From: Thuidium tamariscinum
Taxonomy: Eukaryota > Streptophyta > Bryopsida > Hypnales > Thuidiaceae
DNA: 64,000 nt
NCBI GenBank assembly: GCA_947034885.2
Contig: OX344749.2
Span: forward strand, 19,731,501-19,795,500
Direction: 5' to 3'
Below are positions 29,800-59,157 of the stretch, one piece after another. Within the stretch, counting starts at the first letter, position 1, and each line of letters begins with the position of its first letter. Under the pieces are notes generated by a model that did not search any database, was not told the origin of the DNA, and saw only the letters and a list, made by a program, of their open reading frames with translations. A program made the position numbers and the translations under genes.

Positions 29800-30976
29800 T
29801 ATTGATCCAAATTTTAAACTTCTTTTGCAAAATTCATAAATGTCACTATTATGGGGGTCATTATTTGGACCAACTTAATGAAATTGTGGTGGTGAATCAA
29901 TGTGCCATATATTACTAGAATTTCTAAATAACAAAATCAATGATTACTATTGTCTTGGATATTTGATTGGTCATTATGCAATCCTTACACAAATCATCCT
30001 AGAATAATTTAGTTGCTATAAACCTAAATACAAAACTAAGAAAATAATTGAAGAGTGTATCACATAGTATGTCATTTTAGCAAACTTTACCATTTTTTGC
30101 ATGCCAATTGTGCAGTTTAGAGAAAGCTAAAATTTTGTTTAACCTAAGTCTTTGCTCGGCCTAATTCATTGCTTGGCCATACAATCAATGGCAAAGAATC
30201 CTTCTACATAAGACAAAAGTGTATACACTCATCCGTGGAATTTTGAGTGAAAAAGGGAAGGCCTTGCACAATAGTTTGACCTCCAAAAGTAGTCTTTTTT
30301 TTTAAGTAGATAATTCATTTCATGCCAAAACATAATGACTTTTATAGTGACCAGCCCATCTTTATAGGAATAAGTAGAAGTAGACCATGCATACTAGTCC
30401 AAAGTAATTCATAGCTATGATAAATAGTTTCTAAGTTTGTTTATAAGATGAAATTGAAGAACTTTGAGGGCTAATGTTCACTTCTATTCCATCCCTCTAG
30501 CATCCCTAAAAATGCAAGTTGTTGTACATTGGGGTTAGATTTGTTCGGCCCTATACAAAATCATTTCTTTTTTTAATTTTAATTTTCATTCATTTCCTCA
30601 ATTTATATTGTTTGGAAGTTCTTTTTACAAGGTTCAAAATATTTCATGACCTATAGCATAGCTCAATTCATTTCATAACCTTTTGTAGTACAATTATAGC
30701 TTTACCAATGCTTAAGACTTTACCAATACTCATAGCTCTAGCTTTGTGGTTTTTTAATACATTAAGACTATTTTCATTAGTATTTTCTATATCTTTCACT
30801 TATGCCACTTTCTAATTTTTGAAAAATTCATTGGATGACTTATTTAACTTCTAAAGGATTGTTGTCTCTTCAAGGAACAAAATGGATTTTGGATAGATTC
30901 GTGTGACCTCAATTTTTGGTGAAACTTTTTGAAACGTTTTCATAAGATAGAAAAATTGAACAGCTTTGTGTTAGGG
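29800..30976. other. AT-rich intergenic DNA, no gene seen
   Basis: No coding region or delimited repeat recognised. Confidence 0.5.
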
Positions 30977-31700
30977 TGATTGCAAGAAACACTTGTCCTA
31001 TTTTTTGTCCCCTTGACCTCCAACATGTAGTTTTTTGCTCATAACTTTTGCATAGTTTGCCATATCAACTTAAAATTTGGAATGAAGATGCACAAAAAAG
31101 TTTAATATGTTGTGTAATTTTTTCAATTTCTTAAAAATTAGTTTACTATTTTTAAACTAACCCCGATTGGCTGTCTACCTTAGCCATTTTGGGAGGGGTT
31201 TAGTCCTATTTTTGACCCCAAAATGAAAATTTTGAGCTGAAAATTGGCATGCAAGGACCTCAACTAAAGTTACACAAGACCACGAAGAGATTTTTTGAAA
31301 ATACTATACTGTTCAACCTCCACATGTTGTCAAAGTGGATGACTTTGCACAAGTGTAGAGAATAGAATTAATTTTTTTCAAAGATGAAATTTGTTGGAAA
31401 AGAAATACCTTTACTTGAAGAAAAAATGCATTTTCCATTTTCGTTTTTTGAATTTTTTTACTATTTTTACCAAATTAATGAAAAAAAAGTTATTTTCATT
31501 GTATTTTCCATTGTCTATAACATTTAGAGAAAAAATTTCTTAGGTCTGAATTTCAAGAGACATAATATTCTCATTGCTCTTTAAATTATCCATATTTTTT
31601 TCAATTTAAAAAAAAATTATTTCAAAGGGTCATAGGACTCACAGGACTCATTGATTTTGAGCCATTTTGAGCCAAAACCGGTAAGTGTTTCTTGCAACAA
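30977..31700. mobile_element. Family C TIR element (TTGCAAGAAACACTT ends)
   Basis: TTGCAAGAAACACTT at 30980-30994 is mirrored exactly at 31683-31697. The interior shares phrases such as CATAACTTTTG and GGCTGTCTACCTTAGCC with AT-rich repeats elsewhere but has no ORF. A family B fragment follows directly on the right, so this copy may have inserted into one. Confidence 0.6.
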
Positions 31701-32153
31701 TCCATTAATATAATTTTTATTTCAATTGGTGCTTGGGAGCAAAAGTTATACCACAAAAAGTCCATAATTGAACTTTGTAGGCAACAAAAAAAAATTTGCA
31801 AAAAGATGAAACTAATTTTTTTTTAAATTTCCTAAAATAATATGTTTTTGTTTACATGTGAAGCTTTGATTCATTCTAATTGGATTAGTAATGAGAAAAT
31901 TATGGACAATTGATATAGTTTTTTCGAAAATTTCAATATCTTCTCGAAAAAATAACTTTGATTGTTCATATCTTCCAACCTTTTTGGTCAAACTCCATGA
32001 AAATTTTTACTGTATGATCTCTAAAAACAAGTTAAGTACAAGATCCTATGGTGATATTCTAAAAAAATGTTTTTTTTGTTTTCTTGGATGAAAGTAGTAG
32101 AAATGGCAGTTTTGAGAGTGTTTGATAGAAAAATGGCTTTAGTCCTTGAGGGG
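31701..32153 (+). mobile_element. Family B fragment (right end)
   Basis: Similar to the right half of 33847-34793: shared ACAAGATCCTAYGGT and GAAATGGCAGTTTTG, then a terminal GAGGGG before TTAA at 32154-32157. Truncated or interrupted on the left. No coding capacity. Confidence 0.5.
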
Positions 32154-33846: not shown

Positions 33847-34793
33847 CCCCTAAACCCCCGGACAGCGTTTTTTGAGATTATAGATTTTTTGGGCAGCTCA
33901 CTACGGATGGAGTTTTTATTTTTTTTCTTTGAAATTTTGATACAATGTGTGTCCGAGGAGTAGCTTTAAGGCCCAACAATTTTCATAACTTTTGACTTTG
34001 TGGATAAAAAGTTATGGCATGATATGTTACTTTGTTTGCTCGGCGGGCAGACCGGGCAGCTGAAAAAACTTTTTCAAAAAAACTTTTTTTTGAAAAGTGA
34101 AATTTCAAATCGGTTCTTTAGGTTTATACAGACATGTGAAGCTTTGAATCAATCCATTCCGATCAATGAGTCAAAAGTTATGAAGATTTTAAGTTTGGGG
34201 TAGTTTGCAGCCAGTTACAGAATCTGCACAGCACAAAAAAAGTTTGAAATTCTTCATTTAATTCAATTTTTTATATTTTTGAAAGAAAATAAAAACAAAA
34301 AGTGTAGATTGTTTATTTCAACATTTTAACCATTGGGATTGAAAATTTTCAATTCCATGAATAAAATGTTCACAATTTAGTATTTTGGCTCATTTTTTAC
34401 TTCTTTCTACTTACTTATTTTTTCCTATATGTTGTACAATTCCAAATGGTTTGAAATTTTTTGAGAATGTAGCCAACTTACATTGAAGTAAGAATTCAAA
34501 GAGTAACCACCATTTTGAATTTTTTTTCACACAAATGTGACCTTGTGAAGTGCAGCTGCCCGGATTTTCGCTGGGATAAAAAAACAGTTTTTGTCAATTC
34601 AAATGCTTATATCTTGCAATCTACATGGTGGAAATTTCTGAAATTTTTTCCACATGTTTACAAACCACCTTACTACAAGATCCTACGGTTACATGAGTCA
34701 AAAATGTGTTTTTAAAAAAAAATTGCTCTTGTATTAGAAATGGCAGTTTTGGAGCATTTTTTTTGGTGAAAACGCTATCCGGGGGTTTAGGGG
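33847..34793 (+). mobile_element. Family B TIR element, intact, TTAA target site
   Basis: A 947-bp element with termini of about 25 bp, one mismatch between arms: left CCCCTAAACCCCCGGACAGC, right GCTATCCGGGGGTTTAGGGG. It is flanked by TTAA on both sides (33843-33846 and 34794-34797). TTAA targets with C-rich ends recall piggyBac-type transposons, but no transposase is present, so the superfamily is inference. Copies or fragments lie at 11780-13222, 31701-32153, 38787-39001, 42534-43457 and 59158-59374. Confidence 0.7.
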
Positions 34794-42533: not shown

Positions 42534-43457
42534 CCCCTTAAATTCTTTGACAATGTTCACTCTAAAAATGGTCAAAAATTGCCATTTCTAGTACCAATGC
42601 CAATTTTTTTTCTTAAAACTTTTTTTGAGATTTGTAACCATAGGATATTGTAGTGAACTAGTTTAAAAACATGTGCAAGAAATTTCAGAGATTTTCACCG
42701 TGTAGATTGAAAGATATTACAGTTTGAATGCTCAAATATCATTTTTTCTACCCTACAGAAAACAGGGCAGCTGCACTTCAAATGGCAACAATCATATGAA
42801 AAATGGTCCAAAATGGTTGTTCCTCTTTGGATTCATTGTTGAAGCCAAGTAGGGTACTTGCCTAAAAAATTTCAAATTTTTTAGGATTGTACACCATATA
42901 GAAAAGAAATAGTAAGTAAAAAGAAGTAGCAAATGTTTCAAAATACAAAATTGTTAATAATCTAACTGTGGAATTGAAAAATGCCAATCCCAATGGTTGG
43001 AATGCTATATTAAACAATCTTCATCCTATAGTTATATTTATTTCAAAAACTATTGAAAATTGACTAAAATAAAGGACTTCAAAGTTTATTTTAGAATAGA
43101 AAATCCATAACTACCAACAAACAAAAAAACCTCATAACTTTTGACTCATTGATCAGAATGGAATGATTCAAAGCTTTCCATGCATACATAAATGAAGAAT
43201 ACTAATTTCAAACTTTTGTTTTTGAAAAAACTGATTTTTTCTGAACTGCCCGAACTGCCCAGTTATGAAAAAAAGTAATATATTAGGCTGTATCTTTTGA
43301 CTTGTATTTCCAAATGTCCCGATTTTTGTATATATGAAAGATATTCCATGTCCCCACCTTCTATTAAAATTTCAGTCCAAAATATGAAAATCTCCGCTCA
43401 CACGTACCTACCCAAAATTGCTATATTGCCAAATTTGGTAGCTTGGTCTTTTAGGGG
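42534..43457 (-). mobile_element. Family B TIR element, second near-full copy
   Basis: A 924-bp element between TTAA at 42530-42533 and TTAA at 43458-43461. It is the reverse-orientation relative of 33847-34793, sharing the GCAGCTGCACTTC segment, the TGCCCGAACTGCCC-like segment and the terminal CTTTTAGGGG. The TIRs have decayed to about 10 bp. Confidence 0.65.
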
Positions 43458-43563
43458 TTAATAGTTGTTGGATTAGAGAATGCTATAGCTATTGCAACAT
43501 TTAGATGATACTTTTATTTTAAAAATGTTTATCAATATTTTTGTTGTTTTCATATGCCACATT

Positions 43564-43726
43564 CACTAGAAGAAAGTTTGAAGCCTTTAACATGACTTCA
43601 ACACAATCTAGATGATGTTTTGTGATGACTGCAACACAAAATTTGCATATTCGCATTGTAGTTAATGCAAAACATCATCTAGATTGTGTTGAAGTCACGT
43701 TAAAGGCTTCAAACTTTCTTCTAGTG
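43564..43726. mobile_element. CACTA-type MITE, near-perfect palindrome
   Basis: A 163-bp element whose arms of about 60 bp are almost identical. It begins CACTAGAAGAAAGTTTGAAG and ends with the inverse, with one visible mismatch over most of the arm. It is flanked by ATT at 43561-43563 and 43727-43729. The high arm identity makes it a likely recent insertion. Confidence 0.85.
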
Positions 43727-43729
43727 ATT

Positions 43730-50386: not shown

Positions 50387-50806
50387 GTGAACGGGACTCT
50401 CAAATTTTGGCTCTTTCGCTTACACAGCCTCCAACGTAGGAGTACTTATTTACTTGTGTGATCGCAGCCTCTACTCCACTCTCTGCTACCGTCTGTTTCT
50501 CAGACGGCGTTTGAGTGCGGGACCTCCCGTTACCATCCTGCTCAAATTTTAATCGACACGCAATTGTTGAATAGCTATCAGGTTTTGTTTCGAGTTTGGT
50601 CTCGAGTAGTATGTCATTGCTATTTTTTTGTACGTACTAACTTGTGCAGATTCTTGTATTCTTTTCAATCTGTTCAAATATTTTTTCCCGCTCTCGTGGA
50701 ATACCGAGTGCGTCGCTCGAGTTCCAAAGTCATACGATCTATTGAGGGAGCTTGAAAAAACTGCGATTCTGAGAGTCTGGTGGCAAGTGCTGAGAAGGAA
50801 TCGACA

Positions 50807-52698
50807 ATGGGGTCGATCAATGCAGCTCTCCTGGTTGCGGTGGTGCTGCAATGCTTGACGCTGGCAGCTGGGCAGGGCACTTGGCAACTTATTCAGAAGA
50901 ATGCGGGCATTGCCACCATGCACGCCGCGATCACGCACTTCGACACGGCTATCCTATTGGACCGGACCAACACTGGCCCGACTCAGATCAAGCTCCCGGG
51001 TGGGCGATGTCGCAAGCAGCCCTTGGAGCGAATCTCCAAGACGGACTGCTACGCGCACTCCGTGATGATGAATCCCGCTAATGGCGCCGTGCGCGCTCTC
51101 TACATATTCACAGACACCTGGTGCTCCTCCGGTCAGTTCTTCGACAATGGAAGGCTGGTGCAGACGGGTGGGGACTTCGAGGGGAACAAGAAGATCCGGA
51201 CACTGACGCCTTGCCCCGCCAATGGCAACTGCGACTGGGTGGAGCTGGGTGAGAATTTGAACTTGGGTCGCTGGTACTCTTCCAACCAGCTGTTGCCGAC
51301 TGGGATTCGACAGATCATCATGGGCGGTCGTGGAACGGCGACTTACGAGTTTTACCCGAAACGGAAGGCTGGCGAAGGCTCCTTCAATCTGGCCATGCTG
51401 GGCGGGTCAGACAACCTATACCCTTTTGTGTTTTTGCTTCCCAACGGCGACTTGTTCGTGTTCGCGAATATGGACTCCGTGCAGTTTAATTGGAACACGG
51501 GAAGAATCGTCCGGAAGTATCCGAGGCTGGGTCCCAATCCTAGAAACTACCCGTCGGCTGGGTCCGCTGTGATGCTTACCTTGAACTGGAACCAGAACTT
51601 CGGCGTAGCAGAGATCTTGGTTTGCGGAGGCGCGAGTGCGGGCGTGTCGAGGTCCGGGAACGCAAACGCCCCGGCGTCGGCGAGCTGCGGACGCATTGTG
51701 GCCACGGCGGGAGCTCCGAAGTGGGCGAACTTCAACATGCCGTTCCGGCGTACCATGGGCGACATGATCAATCTGCCAACGGGAGATGTGCTCATCATCA
51801 ACGGAGCCCAGAACGGGTACAATGGATGGGGGCTAGCAAGCAATCCAGCGCTGAACCCCGTGCTGTACTCTCCGGGAACCGGCCGGTTCACCACGTTGGC
51901 CAAGAGTGGCATTCCTCGTATGTATCACTCCACCGCGAGCTTGCTCACAGATGGGAGGATTCTCGTAGCGGGAAGCAACACGCACCAGTACTACACTTAC
52001 ACTGGAGCGTTCCCCACGGAGCTGCGTGTTGAGGCTTTCTCACCGCCCTACTTGCAAGCTGGGTATGTTTAAATGCATCCCAAATCTCCTCATTCCTTGA
52101 TCAAAGTACATTTCGTTGCATCTAAGTATTCCAAAACCGTTCTACTCATGCAGTCATGCTTGAATCGAGATCCGACATAATAGCGTTCCCACTTTGTCTT
52201 GAATGTATCCTCGTCTATTACTAGATTACACAGGAATTGAAGTTCTTTCAGTGGAGATTGTCGATGTTGGCAGTCATGTACTTGGATTGACTCCTGGATG
52301 TTAATTTAGGCTACGAGTAAGCTGTTTGAAGTGTCGTGACCGGTTGGTTTCTAACGATTCTCCTTACGAATGGTGAATGCAGAAATAGGCCCGGCATCAC
52401 AAACTACCCCAGGGCTCTCAAGTACAGGCAGGTGTTCACGGTAACCTTCAATGTCGGAGCCAGGAGGGGCGGTGTCGATGTATACCAGAAGAGCGCTCCC
52501 TTCGTCACGCATGCGTTCGCGCAGGGCCAGAGGCTATTGAAGCTGAAGACGAGCTTGCCTGTGAAGGTTGGCGGCGGGTATTCCGTGGTAGTCACCGCTG
52601 TTTCCGGCAACACGATCGCCCCTCCCGCGTACTACATTCTGTTCTTGGTCCAGAACGGTGTACCTTCCAAGGGTGTCTGGACAAAGCAGAACAATTAA
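50807..52698 (+). CDS. Glyoxal/galactose oxidase-like copper radical oxidase
   Basis: Secreted copper radical oxidase of the plant GLOX group; relatives oxidise aldehydes or primary alcohols and release H2O2 in the cell wall. Exon 1 is 50807-52062 and exon 2 is 52383-52698; a 320-bp GT-AG intron splits a glycine codon. The product is 523 residues. Residues 1 to about 23 form a signal peptide (GSINAALLVAVVLQCLTLAAGQ). The seven-bladed Kelch-like Glyoxal_oxid_N domain follows, then a C-terminal DUF1929 Ig-like domain from about residue 420. Predicted metalloradical residues are all present: C106 (TWCSSG) for the Cys-Tyr cross-link with Y157 (GRWYSSNQ), Y373-H374 (RMYHSTASLL), and H462 (FVTHAFAQGQR). 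The first in-frame ATG gives the signal peptide at once; upstream codons are open but have no ATG. A short 5' UTR intron ending near 50649 (CTAAC, TGTGCAG) is possible. Confidence 0.93.
52063..52382 (+). other. Oxidase gene intron
   Basis: Donor GCTGG|GTATGT, acceptor GAATGCAG|AAAT. Joining restores the GNRPG reading across the Kelch/DUF1929 boundary, where the family is conserved. Without splicing the frame stops four codons past the donor. Confidence 0.9.
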
Positions 52699-54829: not shown

Positions 54830-54849
54830 TTCGTATATCTTCCATTTTG

Positions 54850-55090
54850 TAGTACTATTAACTTATGTCTTATTGCTCATTTTAAAGTAAAGCTTTGATT
54901 TTAATTAAAAATTGAAGTTGAAAGTAATATTTTCACTTGAAAATACTAGATATTTATATCTTATTGCTCTTTTTAAAGAAAAACTTTAGTTTCAATTAAA
55001 AATTGAAGTTGAAAGTAATTATACTTCCACTTAGAAGTGCTAGTTACTTTTATCTTATTGCTCTTTTTGAATTAAAAGTGAAAGTAAGAC
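54850..55090 (+). repeat. About 92-bp tandem repeat, 2.5 units
   Basis: TCTTATTGCTC begins at 54868, 54959 and 55053. The first two units continue with AATTAAAAATTGAAGTTGAAAG and the third is truncated. AT-rich and noncoding. Confidence 0.6.
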
Positions 55091-55215
55091 ATTGAGTTTC
55101 AATTGAAAACTCAAGTTCCAAAAAGGGCCCTCAAAATATTGGCTTCATGTCCGCAAATGGAAGAAGCTTTTAATCCATCATTTTGTATAACATTGTTGCT
55201 TAAATTTTACACTTT

Positions 55216-55400
55216 TTAAAAAAAAATTTTAAGACAAATGGGAACCCATTGTATTAAAAGAAACTCAAAACACAAAAAAACAGCCAAGCCCACATAGGCT
55301 AGACACGAACGAGGAAATAGAATAGAAAAAGGAGCAAGCCAAAAGGAAAAGAGTCCTAGAAAAAGGAATAGGAAGGCAGAAGGCCGTTCTTGTTCCACAC
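55216..55400 (-). mobile_element. LINE-like 3' tail remnant
   Basis: Read on the minus strand the segment is a T-rich, coding-like tail leading to TTTTAATACAATGGGTTCCC and then an A/T tract. This style of ending is typical of 5'-truncated plant L1-type LINEs. A related sequence is at about 47631-47760. No reverse transcriptase remains. Confidence 0.4.
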
Positions 55401-56081
55401 TATACTATCATTAACTCTGTTGGCAAATAAAGGAGACAACATCCACGTTTGGTTGAATTTAGCCCGTAGTTTGTCCTTAAGTTAAGGCTGAAAGGAAATC
55501 TGGCATTGTATCTTCAACATTGCTGCACGACCTGAATCCAAGAGACTTTTCCACAAGGTGATCTTGAAATTAAGTTTTGTCCAGTGATCATTGGCGAAGA
55601 CCTAACTGTTCCTCGACGTCCATATGAGCTATAAGGCTAACCCTCTTAACAACAACCAAATATTCTTGAGAGCTCAGAATTTCTTAGGAATTGGGGCTAT
55701 AAAAATGCATTGTTGGAGGTTGAAATGGCGATGTGGGCCCATGATGGCATGATTGGCAAGGATATTTTTAGCATGGCAAATAATTGATTGAGTGTATTCC
55801 TACACCTCACCCGCTTTTTCATATGTGTAAAATCTATGGGTTGGAGTCTCGACAAGTCCTACTACACCACACATTTTGCACTGGTTTAGGACGTAAGCAT
55901 CTAAGTTGTAGAATTCTTTCTTCCTTTGAACTCTATTGGACTATAAAAAAAACTCCATAGTTACATTGATTTCATATGTGCCATATATAGCGTTTTGCAA
56001 TTTTGTTCATAGTCATGTGATTCTAATTGTTTATGTATATTTGCAAGGCAATATTAGGTGTACACACATCAAATTGTGAAT
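55401..56081. other. Intergenic DNA, no gene seen
   Basis: No supported feature. Confidence 0.4.
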
Positions 56082-56570
56082 ATGGGGGATGATAATATAT
56101 CCAAACCATCTAAAAACTACTATAGTAGCGACAAAAATCAATTATGTAGGAGTTGGATACACATCAACCAAGATCCTGTTGCGGGGACTAGACAAAAGGT
56201 AGGTAAATTTTTGGAGAGAATATTGAAGCATTAAATGGACGCAATTGGACAAGGTAAGTTTCAAATAATTTGTTTTATAAGTTTTATAAATATTATAGCA
56301 ACAACATCAAAATTGTATTAAAGTTCACTTCTAATTCATTAATGGTTAATTAGGTGCAACTAAAAGATCCATCAAGTCACTGGAGACAAAGTTCAGTACA
56401 ATTAAGACTAAGACAATGAAATTCAATTCATGTGTCTCAAACATAAGATACTTTGATGAGTTTGGAACAAGTGTAGGTGACATAATGGAAAAAACTTTGA
56501 AGCTTTATAAAAACAAGCATGGGAATAAGAAAAAAAAATTCATTCATGAATGCATCCAACAATGCCTGAA
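56082..56570 (+). pseudogene. Myb/SANT-like gene of a PIF/Harbinger-type transposon, broken
   Basis: The start at 56082 opens a frame with NQLCRSWIHINQDPVAGTRQ and FLERILKH. These match the start of the Myb/SANT-like DNA-binding proteins that accompany PIF/Harbinger transposases and their plant homologues (typically QLCRSWL-VSQDP--GT and FWERI--HY). Codon 51 is TAA (56232-56234) where a tyrosine codon is expected. After GGACAAG comes a 100-bp intron (56254-56353, GTAAGT...TTAG). Exon 2 then gives RSIKSLETKFSTIKT and a KF...FGTS...LKLYKN segment, which is the second half of the same domain family. The frame fades at the centre of the inverted repeat near 56560. No transposase (DDE) gene lies nearby. 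In the intact proteins the domain is thought to bind element ends. Family assignment rests on motif recall, not a search. Confidence 0.6.
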
Positions 56571-56877
56571 TGAATATTTTTTTCTTATTTCTATGCTTGT
56601 TTTTATAAAACTTCAAAGCTTTTTCCATTATGTCACTTGCATTTGTTCCAAACTCATTAAAGTATCTTATGTTTGAGACACATAAATTGAATTTCATTGT
56701 CTTAGTCTTAATTGTATTGAACTTTGTCTCTAGTGACTTGACGTATCTTTTAGTTGCACCTAATTAACCATTAATGAATTAGAAGTGAACTTTAATACAA
56801 TTTTGATGTTGTTGCTATAATATTTATAAAACTTATGAAACAAATTATTTAAAATTTATCTTGTCCAATTGTGTCCA
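56236..56877. repeat. 642-bp inverted duplication of the Myb/SANT-like fragment
   Basis: The left arm (56236 to about 56556) and right arm (about 56558-56877) are highly similar inverted copies, roughly 320 bp each, with almost no spacer. Each arm carries the end of exon 1, the whole 100-bp intron and exon 2 of the broken gene. Because of this, near-identical frames appear on both strands (56416-56676 plus, 56437-56697 minus). The duplication starts inside the gene rather than at element ends, so it is not an ordinary MITE. Transcribed through, it would fold into a long near-perfect hairpin. Confidence 0.85.
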
Positions 56878-57254
56878 CGTTGTTGTAGGATTGTGTGTGC
56901 TATCCAAATAAACACAATATTTTTGGCTGTAGTAGATGTTTCAATATTTCCAATCAAAAATTCAAATATAGATCCTTATTCAAAATATCAACCTCACAAA
57001 CCACCACCAATATATTAAATATAAAAAAGGGAGAGCCTCAAAGATGAGAGGCAAGTCTTTAAATACTACAAGTTTAGTTAGCTAAAAAAGTAAAAAACAA
57101 ACTTAAAAATAAAAGTCAACCAACTTATGAATTAACTAACCTACAATTATAGGACTAAACTAAAAATGTATAGATGTCTACTTTCAACAAATAGACAACA
57201 CACATCATATGCTTTAATATTGTCTCCCATAATTTACCCGCCTTTTGTCCAATT

Positions 57255-58050
57255 GGAGTGAGTGCAAGAAACACTTGTATTATTTGGTGTCATACTTTGA
57301 GTGATAGAGTTGTCATGTGCTATAATTTTTGAAGCATTAACTCTTTGAACTTGAAATTTTCATTGGAGATAGATAACTTGATAGTAATCAAAACTCTTAT
57401 TTTTCAGAAATTTTCAAAAATCATTTTGTATTTTAATTCTAATTTAGCTAATTTGTCACACTTTGCGATTTAGGGGTTATTAGTATGGTACTATTTTCTG
57501 TCACATGTCACATGCTAATCTATTTTTTGGCCATAACTTTTTCATTTTGGCTCCAAATGACTCAAGATTTATAGAAAAGGTATTCATCATTATTATATAG
57601 TTGACCTAATTTTTTCATAATTTTCAAAAATAGTATATTATCCAAAAATAAACCCCAATTGAATGCCACAATTGCCAATTTGGAGGTTTTTAGTACTATT
57701 TAGTACCCAAAAAAACAAAATTTGAGGTGAAATTTGGATGAGGTGGTCTTCTTATAGACTTGTAGTTTATAGCTAAAGAAATTTTAAAAATAATGAATTT
57801 TGTATGGTGTGGAAGCCTATAAATTGAGCTTCTTTTACTTGTATTTTGAAACATATAAAATTTTATTTTGATGTTTTTTTTGGTGAATGACTATTTCTAT
57901 AGAGTTCTTACAAATGGCCACTTTTTATTTTTTGTATTCACTTATTTTAACTATTTTTAACTAATTTAAACATCCAAGTACCTATTTTCTTGAGGTTTCA
58001 AACTTTTCAAGTTTTCCTACTTCGAGACTTTTTCTATGCATTTCTTTCGA
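57255..58050 (+). mobile_element. Family C element, third copy
   Basis: It starts GAGTGCAAGAAACACTTG. The body follows 40316-41061 in the same order (GTGTCATACTTTGAGTG, GAAGCATTAACTCTTTGAAC, TGTCACACTTTGCGATTTAG, and CCTACTTCGAGA near the end). The region around 57480-57960 differs, possibly from an insertion. No ORF. Confidence 0.55.
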
Positions 58051-59157
58051 TAGGTACCTGTGGGCTCTTTATTTCCACCTTTGGAATAAAGTGTACACAA
58101 CCAAGTTCTACTACTTTGTTAATGATTCCTAGTGGGTGTCTAACCTACGTGTAATCCGATCACACCTTCCAAGTAATGAATCTTTCTAAAGTCCTACTCC
58201 TAATTGACCCGCTTTCAAATGCTAGATTGAAATTTCACGCTAAGATTTAGATGATTAAAGCTACCACAATCCAATTAAGTATTGCTGAATGATACTTGAC
58301 GATCAAGCAAATTGGATTAGATTTGGAGAGCTTGTATTGCTCTTTCCAACTTGTTAAAGAAAATCTATGGTTAATCTAATTCCCTACTGGATAATTGCGG
58401 ATGAAGTTTGGACTTTAGCCTTTAAAACTTCATCCGATGATTGCAAGTGTTCTAACTATCAAAATTGAATAAGTATTTTTTAGTTATTTTCTATTTTTAA
58501 TCTCTATCGGAGTTCAAAGTTTCACTTTGATTTGGTCAACTATAGTTGACTTTCATCCAAATGAACAAAGCTTTTAGCTAAAACTTTGATCTACTCTAAC
58601 TTCTTCAATGTTTGATCAAATTTAAAGTAGATTTGAATTTTTTCTGTTCTAAGCTATCTTTTATAAGATTCTATCCATGACTTGTTTGTTGGTTGCTTTT
58701 TAATCTTAATTAATGTGTTGCTAAACTACTCTTTCACTATTTTGACTAAATATTGGAATAGTTAATTTGAATTTTATCTCAAAAGGAATGATTTTATCCC
58801 TTCAAAAGTAAAAACCTCAATCTTTGACTTTGGAGTAAATGCGAATTTTTATGGTAAATTTAGATCGTTGACTGGTTCACCAAAATTTTATCCAGTTAAA
58901 TTCTTTTTACCTAAGGGGTCAAATTCTTTTGGATTTATCTTTTACCTTTTCCTTTTAATCAAAGTCAAATTCTGCTTTTCAACCCTTGAATAAAATTAAT
59001 CATAAGTAAATTCTGACGGTTATCGTTCACCAAACTTTACCTATTAATTACTTTTCCCTTAGTAGTGCTTTTGGTTTTTAACTTTCCACTTCTACTTCTA
59101 ATCAAAAGTCTAAATTCCAAAGGTCTAAATTCTACTTTTATTTTGGAAATAATTTTT
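58051..59157. other. AT-rich intergenic DNA, no gene seen
   Basis: No coding region. Repeated short phrases such as TCAAAGTCAAATTC, TTTGACTTTGGAG and AAATTCTACTTTT occur, with no delimited unit. Confidence 0.45.

Follow-up and report, generated by a model that had tools for sequence, protein, structure and literature searches.

Among natural transposon inverted duplications that initiate heritable silencing, the usual example is Mu killer (Muk) of maize. The available portion of the Muk source paper describes an internally deleted transposon that duplicates ~1.3 kb of the transposase gene in inverted orientation, has two TIRA ends and silences MuDR, and from which a hairpin transcript is expected; it also states that the centre was not sequenceable, offers an antisense model besides the hairpin, and proposes that transcription arises via read-through from a flanking gene (PMC3440606). 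For the MtPH elements of Medicago, PIF/Harbinger transposons with a transposase and an ORF1, the published model of decay is mainly abortive gap repair, and in the part of that paper available inversions, nested insertions and tandem repeats are mentioned rather than head-to-head gene palindromes in most members (PMC2213677). Palindromes that turn at a short inverted sequence near a break are described, in the extracts available, for fold-back inversions in yeast, with stems of 4-15 bp (PMC7467729), and for human inverted duplications, where 13 junctions show 2-8 bp of microhomology (PMC3907307).

Here we describe a palindrome inside a transposon gene of Thuidium tamariscinum, within a 64-kb stretch of DNA (the window; C1:19731501-19795500) of a genome of 363.2 Mb in 19 contigs (Table 1). 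In our reading the locus arose independently, by break repair, as a Muk-shaped derivative of a low-copy PIF/Harbinger lineage and has since decayed; we give this reading a probability of about 0.72. Like Muk, it is an internally deleted transposon with an inverted duplication within a transposon gene, for which a hairpin transcript is expected, a structural likeness that a preliminary description of this DNA had pointed out and that is upheld here. Unlike Muk, the duplicated part belongs to ORF1, the arms are 316 nt long, one outer end is cut, the genome search found no intact target in the subfamily, and any silencing effect is putative. With respect to read-through, the same strand carries upstream a gene for a glyoxal oxidase (50756-52698; PF07250, PF09118), which ends 3.4 kb before the ORF1 start. 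The yeast and human events are chromosomal, whereas the present ones span a few hundred bp inside transposons. As in MITEs and in MIR genes born by inverted duplication, the inverted repeat can fold as RNA, yet its arms are internal parts of a gene and not terminal repeats, and with six loci only it lacks the high copy number of a short, multi-copy MITE.

Table 1 Positions of the features discussed, in the window unless a locus name precedes them
Feature	Position	Strand	Remarks
Upstream block common to sister PIF/Harbinger loci	54839-55211	+	between divergent transposase and ORF1 genes; ~91-bp tandem-like repeats
660-bp dispersed repeat	55213-55872		inserted between upstream parts contiguous in L010 (L010 4238-4447 and 4440-5119 flank)
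Upstream sequence adjoining ORF1	55873-56081	+	
Exon 1 of degenerate ORF1	56082-56253	+	ATG at 56082, 50 codons, then TAA at 56232-56234
Intron	56254-56353	+	100 bp, GT...AG; from splice-like ends and alignment
Left arm of inverted duplication	56236-56551	+	last 18 bp of exon 1, then intron, then most of exon 2; sense
Spacer	56552-56561		10 nt; with neighbours forms hairpin tip GCAT-CCAACA-ATGC; native loop sequence antisense to left arm
Right arm, inverted copy of left arm	56562-56877	-	antisense on +; tblastn 56572-56763 minus
327-bp dispersed TG...CA repeat, solo-LTR-like	56881-57207		LTR label by eye
Old repeat copy	57488-58062		also in L011, L013 and other survey loci
C8/L009 palindrome	L009:4293-5519		Myb gene, 613-bp arms, 96%
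C4/L013 palindrome	L013:4409-5545		Myb gene, 273-bp arms, 88%, 584-bp spacer
C10/L010 palindrome	L010:3356-4099		transposase, 90% over whole, loop included
C6/L011 palindrome	L011:7263-9092		transposase, 915-bp arms, 97%
Older palindrome in more distant relative (C1:29.50 Mb)	L034:2230-2710		transposase, 73%

The preliminary description had read here an exon, a 100-bp intron and an exon with a premature TAA, together with head-to-head arms of about 320 bp, almost without spacer, and a break inside the gene, and each of these points is confirmed. In the alignment to the sister copy L010 the TAA corresponds to a tyrosine codon, the second exon of the window matches sister exon 2, and amino-acid identity of the two exons to L010 ORF1 is 65% and 72%. 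The label Myb/SANT-like for ORF1 is one we presume; Pfam gave no family for window exon 1, and for one piece of L010 ORF1 a sub-threshold match to the NAM-associated family PF14303 (15.6 bits). The arms, consisting of internal ORF1 sequence, are gapless and identical at 295 of 316 positions (about 92-93%) across a 10-nt spacer, the 21 differences (17 transitions, 4 transversions) amounting to 6.6% divergence. Palindromes are a recognised class of artefact in long reads, which would favour a fold-back read as the origin of this structure. Such a read should give near-identical arms, whereas these differ at 21 sites, with polarised changes on both of them, and other palindromes in the genome have arms diverged by about 3-27%; an artefact of sequencing or assembly is therefore extremely improbable. 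Under a rule of arms of at least 150 nt, identity of at least 75% and a gap of at most 100 nt, this is the sole palindrome in the window. Two smaller or looser structures also occur there: a short palindrome with 82-nt arms (87%) at 43563-43727, possibly a fold-back MITE, and an inverted pair at 34235-34725 and 42601-43091 (491 nt, 74% complementary), whose members are separated by 7.9 kb and probably represent a single repeat present twice.

Genome searches with positions 56082-56877 (8 of 8 candidates scored) and with the Myb region L010:4240-5181 (9 of 9 scored) gave the same six loci, namely the window on C1 and sister loci on C8 (L009), C10 (L010), C6 (L011), C9 (L012) and C4 (L013). The sister copies are 73-87% identical, and L010 diverges from the other loci by 6-33%. 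In L009-L012, a transposase of the IS5/PIF-type DDE class, or parts of one, lies beside ORF1 in divergent orientation; it is absent from the window copy. Positions 1624-2019 of L010 match Plant_tran (PF04827, 101 bits), which we take to be a PIF/Harbinger marker, and, below the cut-off, DDE_Tnp_4 (PF13359, 23.2 bits). The combination by which we recognise PIF/Harbinger, a Myb/SANT-like ORF1 beside a transposase, is thus found, with weak Pfam support for the name, and the PIF/Harbinger origin supposed in the preliminary description gains support from four sister loci that pair the same ORF1 with a PF04827-like transposase. The window copy itself would belong here by the ORF1 and upstream sequence that it has in common with the sister loci: in blastn the upstream block is 74-87% identical to L009-L012 and 68% to L013. 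The ORF1 gene on C10 additionally houses a high-copy repeat of ~730 bp (L010:5182-5914), mostly 95-96% identical among the 40 scored of 4880 candidates, and the window seemingly holds a relative of this repeat around 30967-31709.

The window copy, at least one end of which is lost, is also interrupted and abutted by dispersed repeats. The 660-bp repeat upstream has 20 further matches, nine of them starting at query position 15. On the other side, the outer end of the right arm lies 3 bp from the TG...CA repeat, which has 37 further matches, several of them extending from at most 6 bases from the junction to query positions 315-331. The 5-mers flanking this repeat (CACGT, TATGC) do not match, and therefore a deletion or recombination at the boundary is likely; the palindrome may once have been longer, its right arm now ending at the repeat.

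No intact transposase or ORF1 was seen among the other five loci of the Myb-region search. The L012 transposase consists of shifted pieces with an early end, those of L010 and L011 are broken by their own palindromes, and that on C8 contains stops and extends beyond the fetched stretch. A DNA search with the C9 transposase (25 of 25 candidates scored) returned the query itself, then C6, C8 and C10 at 79-89%, a fragment on C2 at 78%, a relative on C1 at 70%, and otherwise matches of 67-85% over about 50-300 bp. A genome search for PF04827 gave at least 151 matches (150 of 279 candidates scored), some with open frames of more than 370 codons, and other PIF/Harbinger lineages may be live. A lack of related intact elements, which the preliminary description had named as counting against a silencing locus, is what these searches give, within their limits, for the subfamily; more distant PIF/Harbinger-like elements with long open transposase frames do exist. 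Two scripted searches for TIRs of 14-25 bp with TTA/TAA 3-bp duplications found none in 14 and 15 fetched loci, the window copy lying outside their scope; they were blank even for loci with full transposase genes, and thus had no working positive control. Separately, two equal-scoring PF04827 matches lie in opposite orientation 13 kb apart on C1 (47237032-47237517, plus strand; 47250424-47250909, minus strand), possibly a large inverted duplication.

Internal inverted duplications recur in this subfamily: of the six loci, all but L012 on C9 have one (five in all), situated in the Myb gene in three cases and in the transposase in two. The proportion has to be read with the caveat that the window was chosen for its palindrome, and that the first query itself covered the stretch containing three of the five, the two transposase palindromes lying outside it. 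From a survey list of 64 loci, 20 were covered whole (L014-L033, the best PF04827 loci) and L034 and L035 as 5-kb stretches. None of the 20 had the same gene matched on both strands, although having been picked for their best transposase scores they are expected to lack such breaks, and we accordingly set aside the contrast of 5/6 with 0/20 (Fisher 9e-5) as biased. L034 carries an older palindrome, while L035, the C2 relative, has none over its transposase fragment.

Near-contiguous palindromes of other content (same rule of arm length, identity and gap) occur in four of the 20 loci (L016, L021, L022, L027), those in L016 and L027 being copies of another repeat and that in L021 being low-complexity. 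The L016 (3015-4102) and L027 (2048-2746) palindromes have arms of 544 and 349 bp at 85-86%, and their repeat is related to window 57488-58062. The five fetched sister elements hold 3 palindromes in 21,299 bases and the background 4 in 288,166 (Poisson P 0.0035), under the same rule, applied post hoc and with element spans drawn after viewing. This comparison draws on 26 sources (the window and L009-L033), leaves out the window palindrome, L001-L008, L034 and L035, loses L013 to the gap rule, and uses a non-random background that combines the window with the 20 transposase loci and with the sequence flanking the sister elements. The pattern is therefore partly background, long palindromes being found outside the subfamily as well (the 4 in 288 kb).

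The palindromes look independent of one another, because each Myb palindrome has arms that cluster with one another and because the palindromes differ in place: in a maximum-likelihood tree of nine arms and single copies, the arms pair within the window, L009 and L013 with supports of 98, 92 and 100, and about 90 bp of the gene separate the turnarounds of the window and L009. Palindrome arms are able to convert each other, so that a palindrome ancestral to the subfamily, its arms since kept alike by gene conversion, might account for presence in five of six loci. Such an ancestor should not be located in different genes (three Myb against two transposase), nor have centres displaced as those of the window and L009 are, nor be missing from C9, and we consider it very improbable. 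Rather, the five separate events probably took place in situ, after dispersal of the copies, since arm divergence is about 3-12% and divergence between L010 and the other loci 6-33%; that the palindromes are younger than the copy splits speaks somewhat against their birth during the family's spread. In the literature searched, mostly outside subscription journals, we found no recurrent internal inverted duplication in PIF/Harbinger, which is weak evidence of novelty.

The centres of the palindromes suggest fold-back or strand-switch synthesis in break repair. That of L009 reads CTACATC-TACAAGGGT-GATGTAG, and because single-copy L010 carries ACATC-TACAAGA-GATGT at the same place, the L009 turn occurred at a short inverted repeat that was native there. 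The L010 turn appears by eye to join, through 2-3 bp of microhomology, two sites separated by ~95 nt. At the tip of the window palindrome, GCATTGTTGG is native in L010, L011 and L012, unlike the other half of the stem. The stem of the window is not demonstrably native, the ancestor sequence past the centre being gone. The loop was read in three centres, those of the window, L009 and L010, and in each it runs inverted to the arm that is still attached to the upstream half. This orientation fits strand-switching or later flipping of the loop better than a retained end that simply snapped back, and strand-switching in the course of gap repair explains the centres no less well than simple snap-back does. 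We infer that a low-copy PIF/Harbinger transposon suffered a break within its ORF1 gene, that during repair the repair strand reversed course at a short inverted motif and ran back for about 320 bp, and that the new end was then joined to other DNA, the same type of event having presumably befallen four of the five known sisters.

A further observation counts against break repair followed by decay. Polarised with seven outgroup rows, 20 arm differences divide into 17 changes of the right arm and 3 of the left, with 1 more ambiguous (binomial p 0.0026, uncorrected, five palindromes examined), an asymmetry not expected of two arms that aged at the same rate. Ten of the 17 right-arm changes replace G with A when read in sense. 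Error-prone copying was considered as the source of this split and rejected, as the faster arm keeps the native loop and the four other palindromes give 5:2, 11:10, 9:8 and 6:4. A longer count for L009, 26:11, was set aside because it took in about 20 bp outside the homologous arm.

The plus-strand RNA of the palindrome is predicted to fold at -453 kcal/mol (z -58), leaving 24 of 642 nt unpaired. Of 20 shuffles, which average -113 kcal/mol, none folded as well, and this excludes chance; the minus strand gives -428 kcal/mol. A transcript over both arms would fold into a hairpin of ~320 bp, cleavable in principle by Dicer-like enzymes. The idea of silencing is reasonable because, as the available part of a study of maize Teosinte Pollen Drive reports, PIF/Harbinger elements took nearly 60% of ectopic 22-nt siRNAs there (PMC11390486). 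An active Muk-like silencer, whose hairpin transcript would yield siRNAs that silence PIF/Harbinger relatives in trans, could draw on this long, near-perfect hairpin in either orientation and on the 44 of 296 distinct left-arm 21-mers that occur in the C6 relative (L011). Pairing differences between the arms (12 G.U against 5 A.C, p 0.14) favour a sense transcript, without significance; the plus-strand ratios of nine other inverted pairs are mixed (9:5, 6:7, 21:9, 14:28, 12:10, 7:10, 4:4, 3:4 and 9:7), a tenth has no such sites, and we rejected selection on RNA pairing on these grounds.

Such a silencer would nevertheless have little to act upon. The remaining sister loci share 8 (L012), 4 (L009), 2 (L010) and 0 (L013) left-arm 21-mers, and the right arm shares 5 with L011, 7 with L012, 1 each with L009 and L010 and 0 with L013; between the arms and 20 more distant PIF/Harbinger-like loci there is no exact match of 18 nt or more. 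The preliminary description had envisaged a present-day target and proposed weighing arm divergence against that of the family: the target finds no support, given these few shared 21-mers and the lack of an intact transposase or ORF1 in the other five loci, and the comparison gives 6.6% between the arms and at least 13% for sister copies in aligned stretches. With an insertion of 660 bp upstream and an LTR-like repeat abutting the right arm as well, active silencing in trans is distinctly unlikely. The C8 palindrome, whose 21-mers match 176 L010 positions, would be better placed to silence than that of the window, and together with the C6 palindrome (arms 96-97% identical) appears the better candidate for hairpin siRNAs.

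A self-acting hairpin, whose siRNAs would maintain methylation of the locus itself and a few relics only, or else an early-stage MIR gene, is unlikely but deserves consideration. In the parts of the sources available, inverted duplication is the proposed first step of MIR genes (PMC10004981), and in maize TEs structures resembling miRNAs are correlated with small RNAs, although fewer than half of the maize PIF-Harbinger elements are structured (PMC10760457). Against it, pairing bears no significant sign of selection, and an Rfam search of the 64-kb window at gathering thresholds gave 0 matches, which a new miRNA could still escape. Functional silencing by the window palindrome is thus possible but unsupported, and a Muk-like function is likewise unsupported and unlikely today. 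Judged from sequence, the decayed derivative most likely does nothing now beyond perhaps supplying, at a low level, siRNAs that maintain its own methylation and that of a few relics, because its arms differ by 6.6%, its sisters by at least 13%, and no intact subfamily member was found.

A bolder and unlikely possibility is that this PIF/Harbinger lineage extinguished itself, repair of transposition breaks having repeatedly given birth to hairpin killers of the Muk type (ORF1 gave rise to three, the transposase to two, and a distant relative has an older one) until the last active copies were silenced and lost. If true, hairpins would arise routinely as cut-and-paste elements transpose. What deserves following is the recurrence within the subfamily. 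If such duplications arise repeatedly in one subfamily, as five of six loci suggest, hairpin triggers may commonly result from transposon repair. The genome offers a dated series, with arm divergence from about 3% to 27%, on which the onset and loss of siRNAs can be tested; and if no siRNAs are made, the series would still document a recurrent outcome of break repair inside plant DNA transposons.
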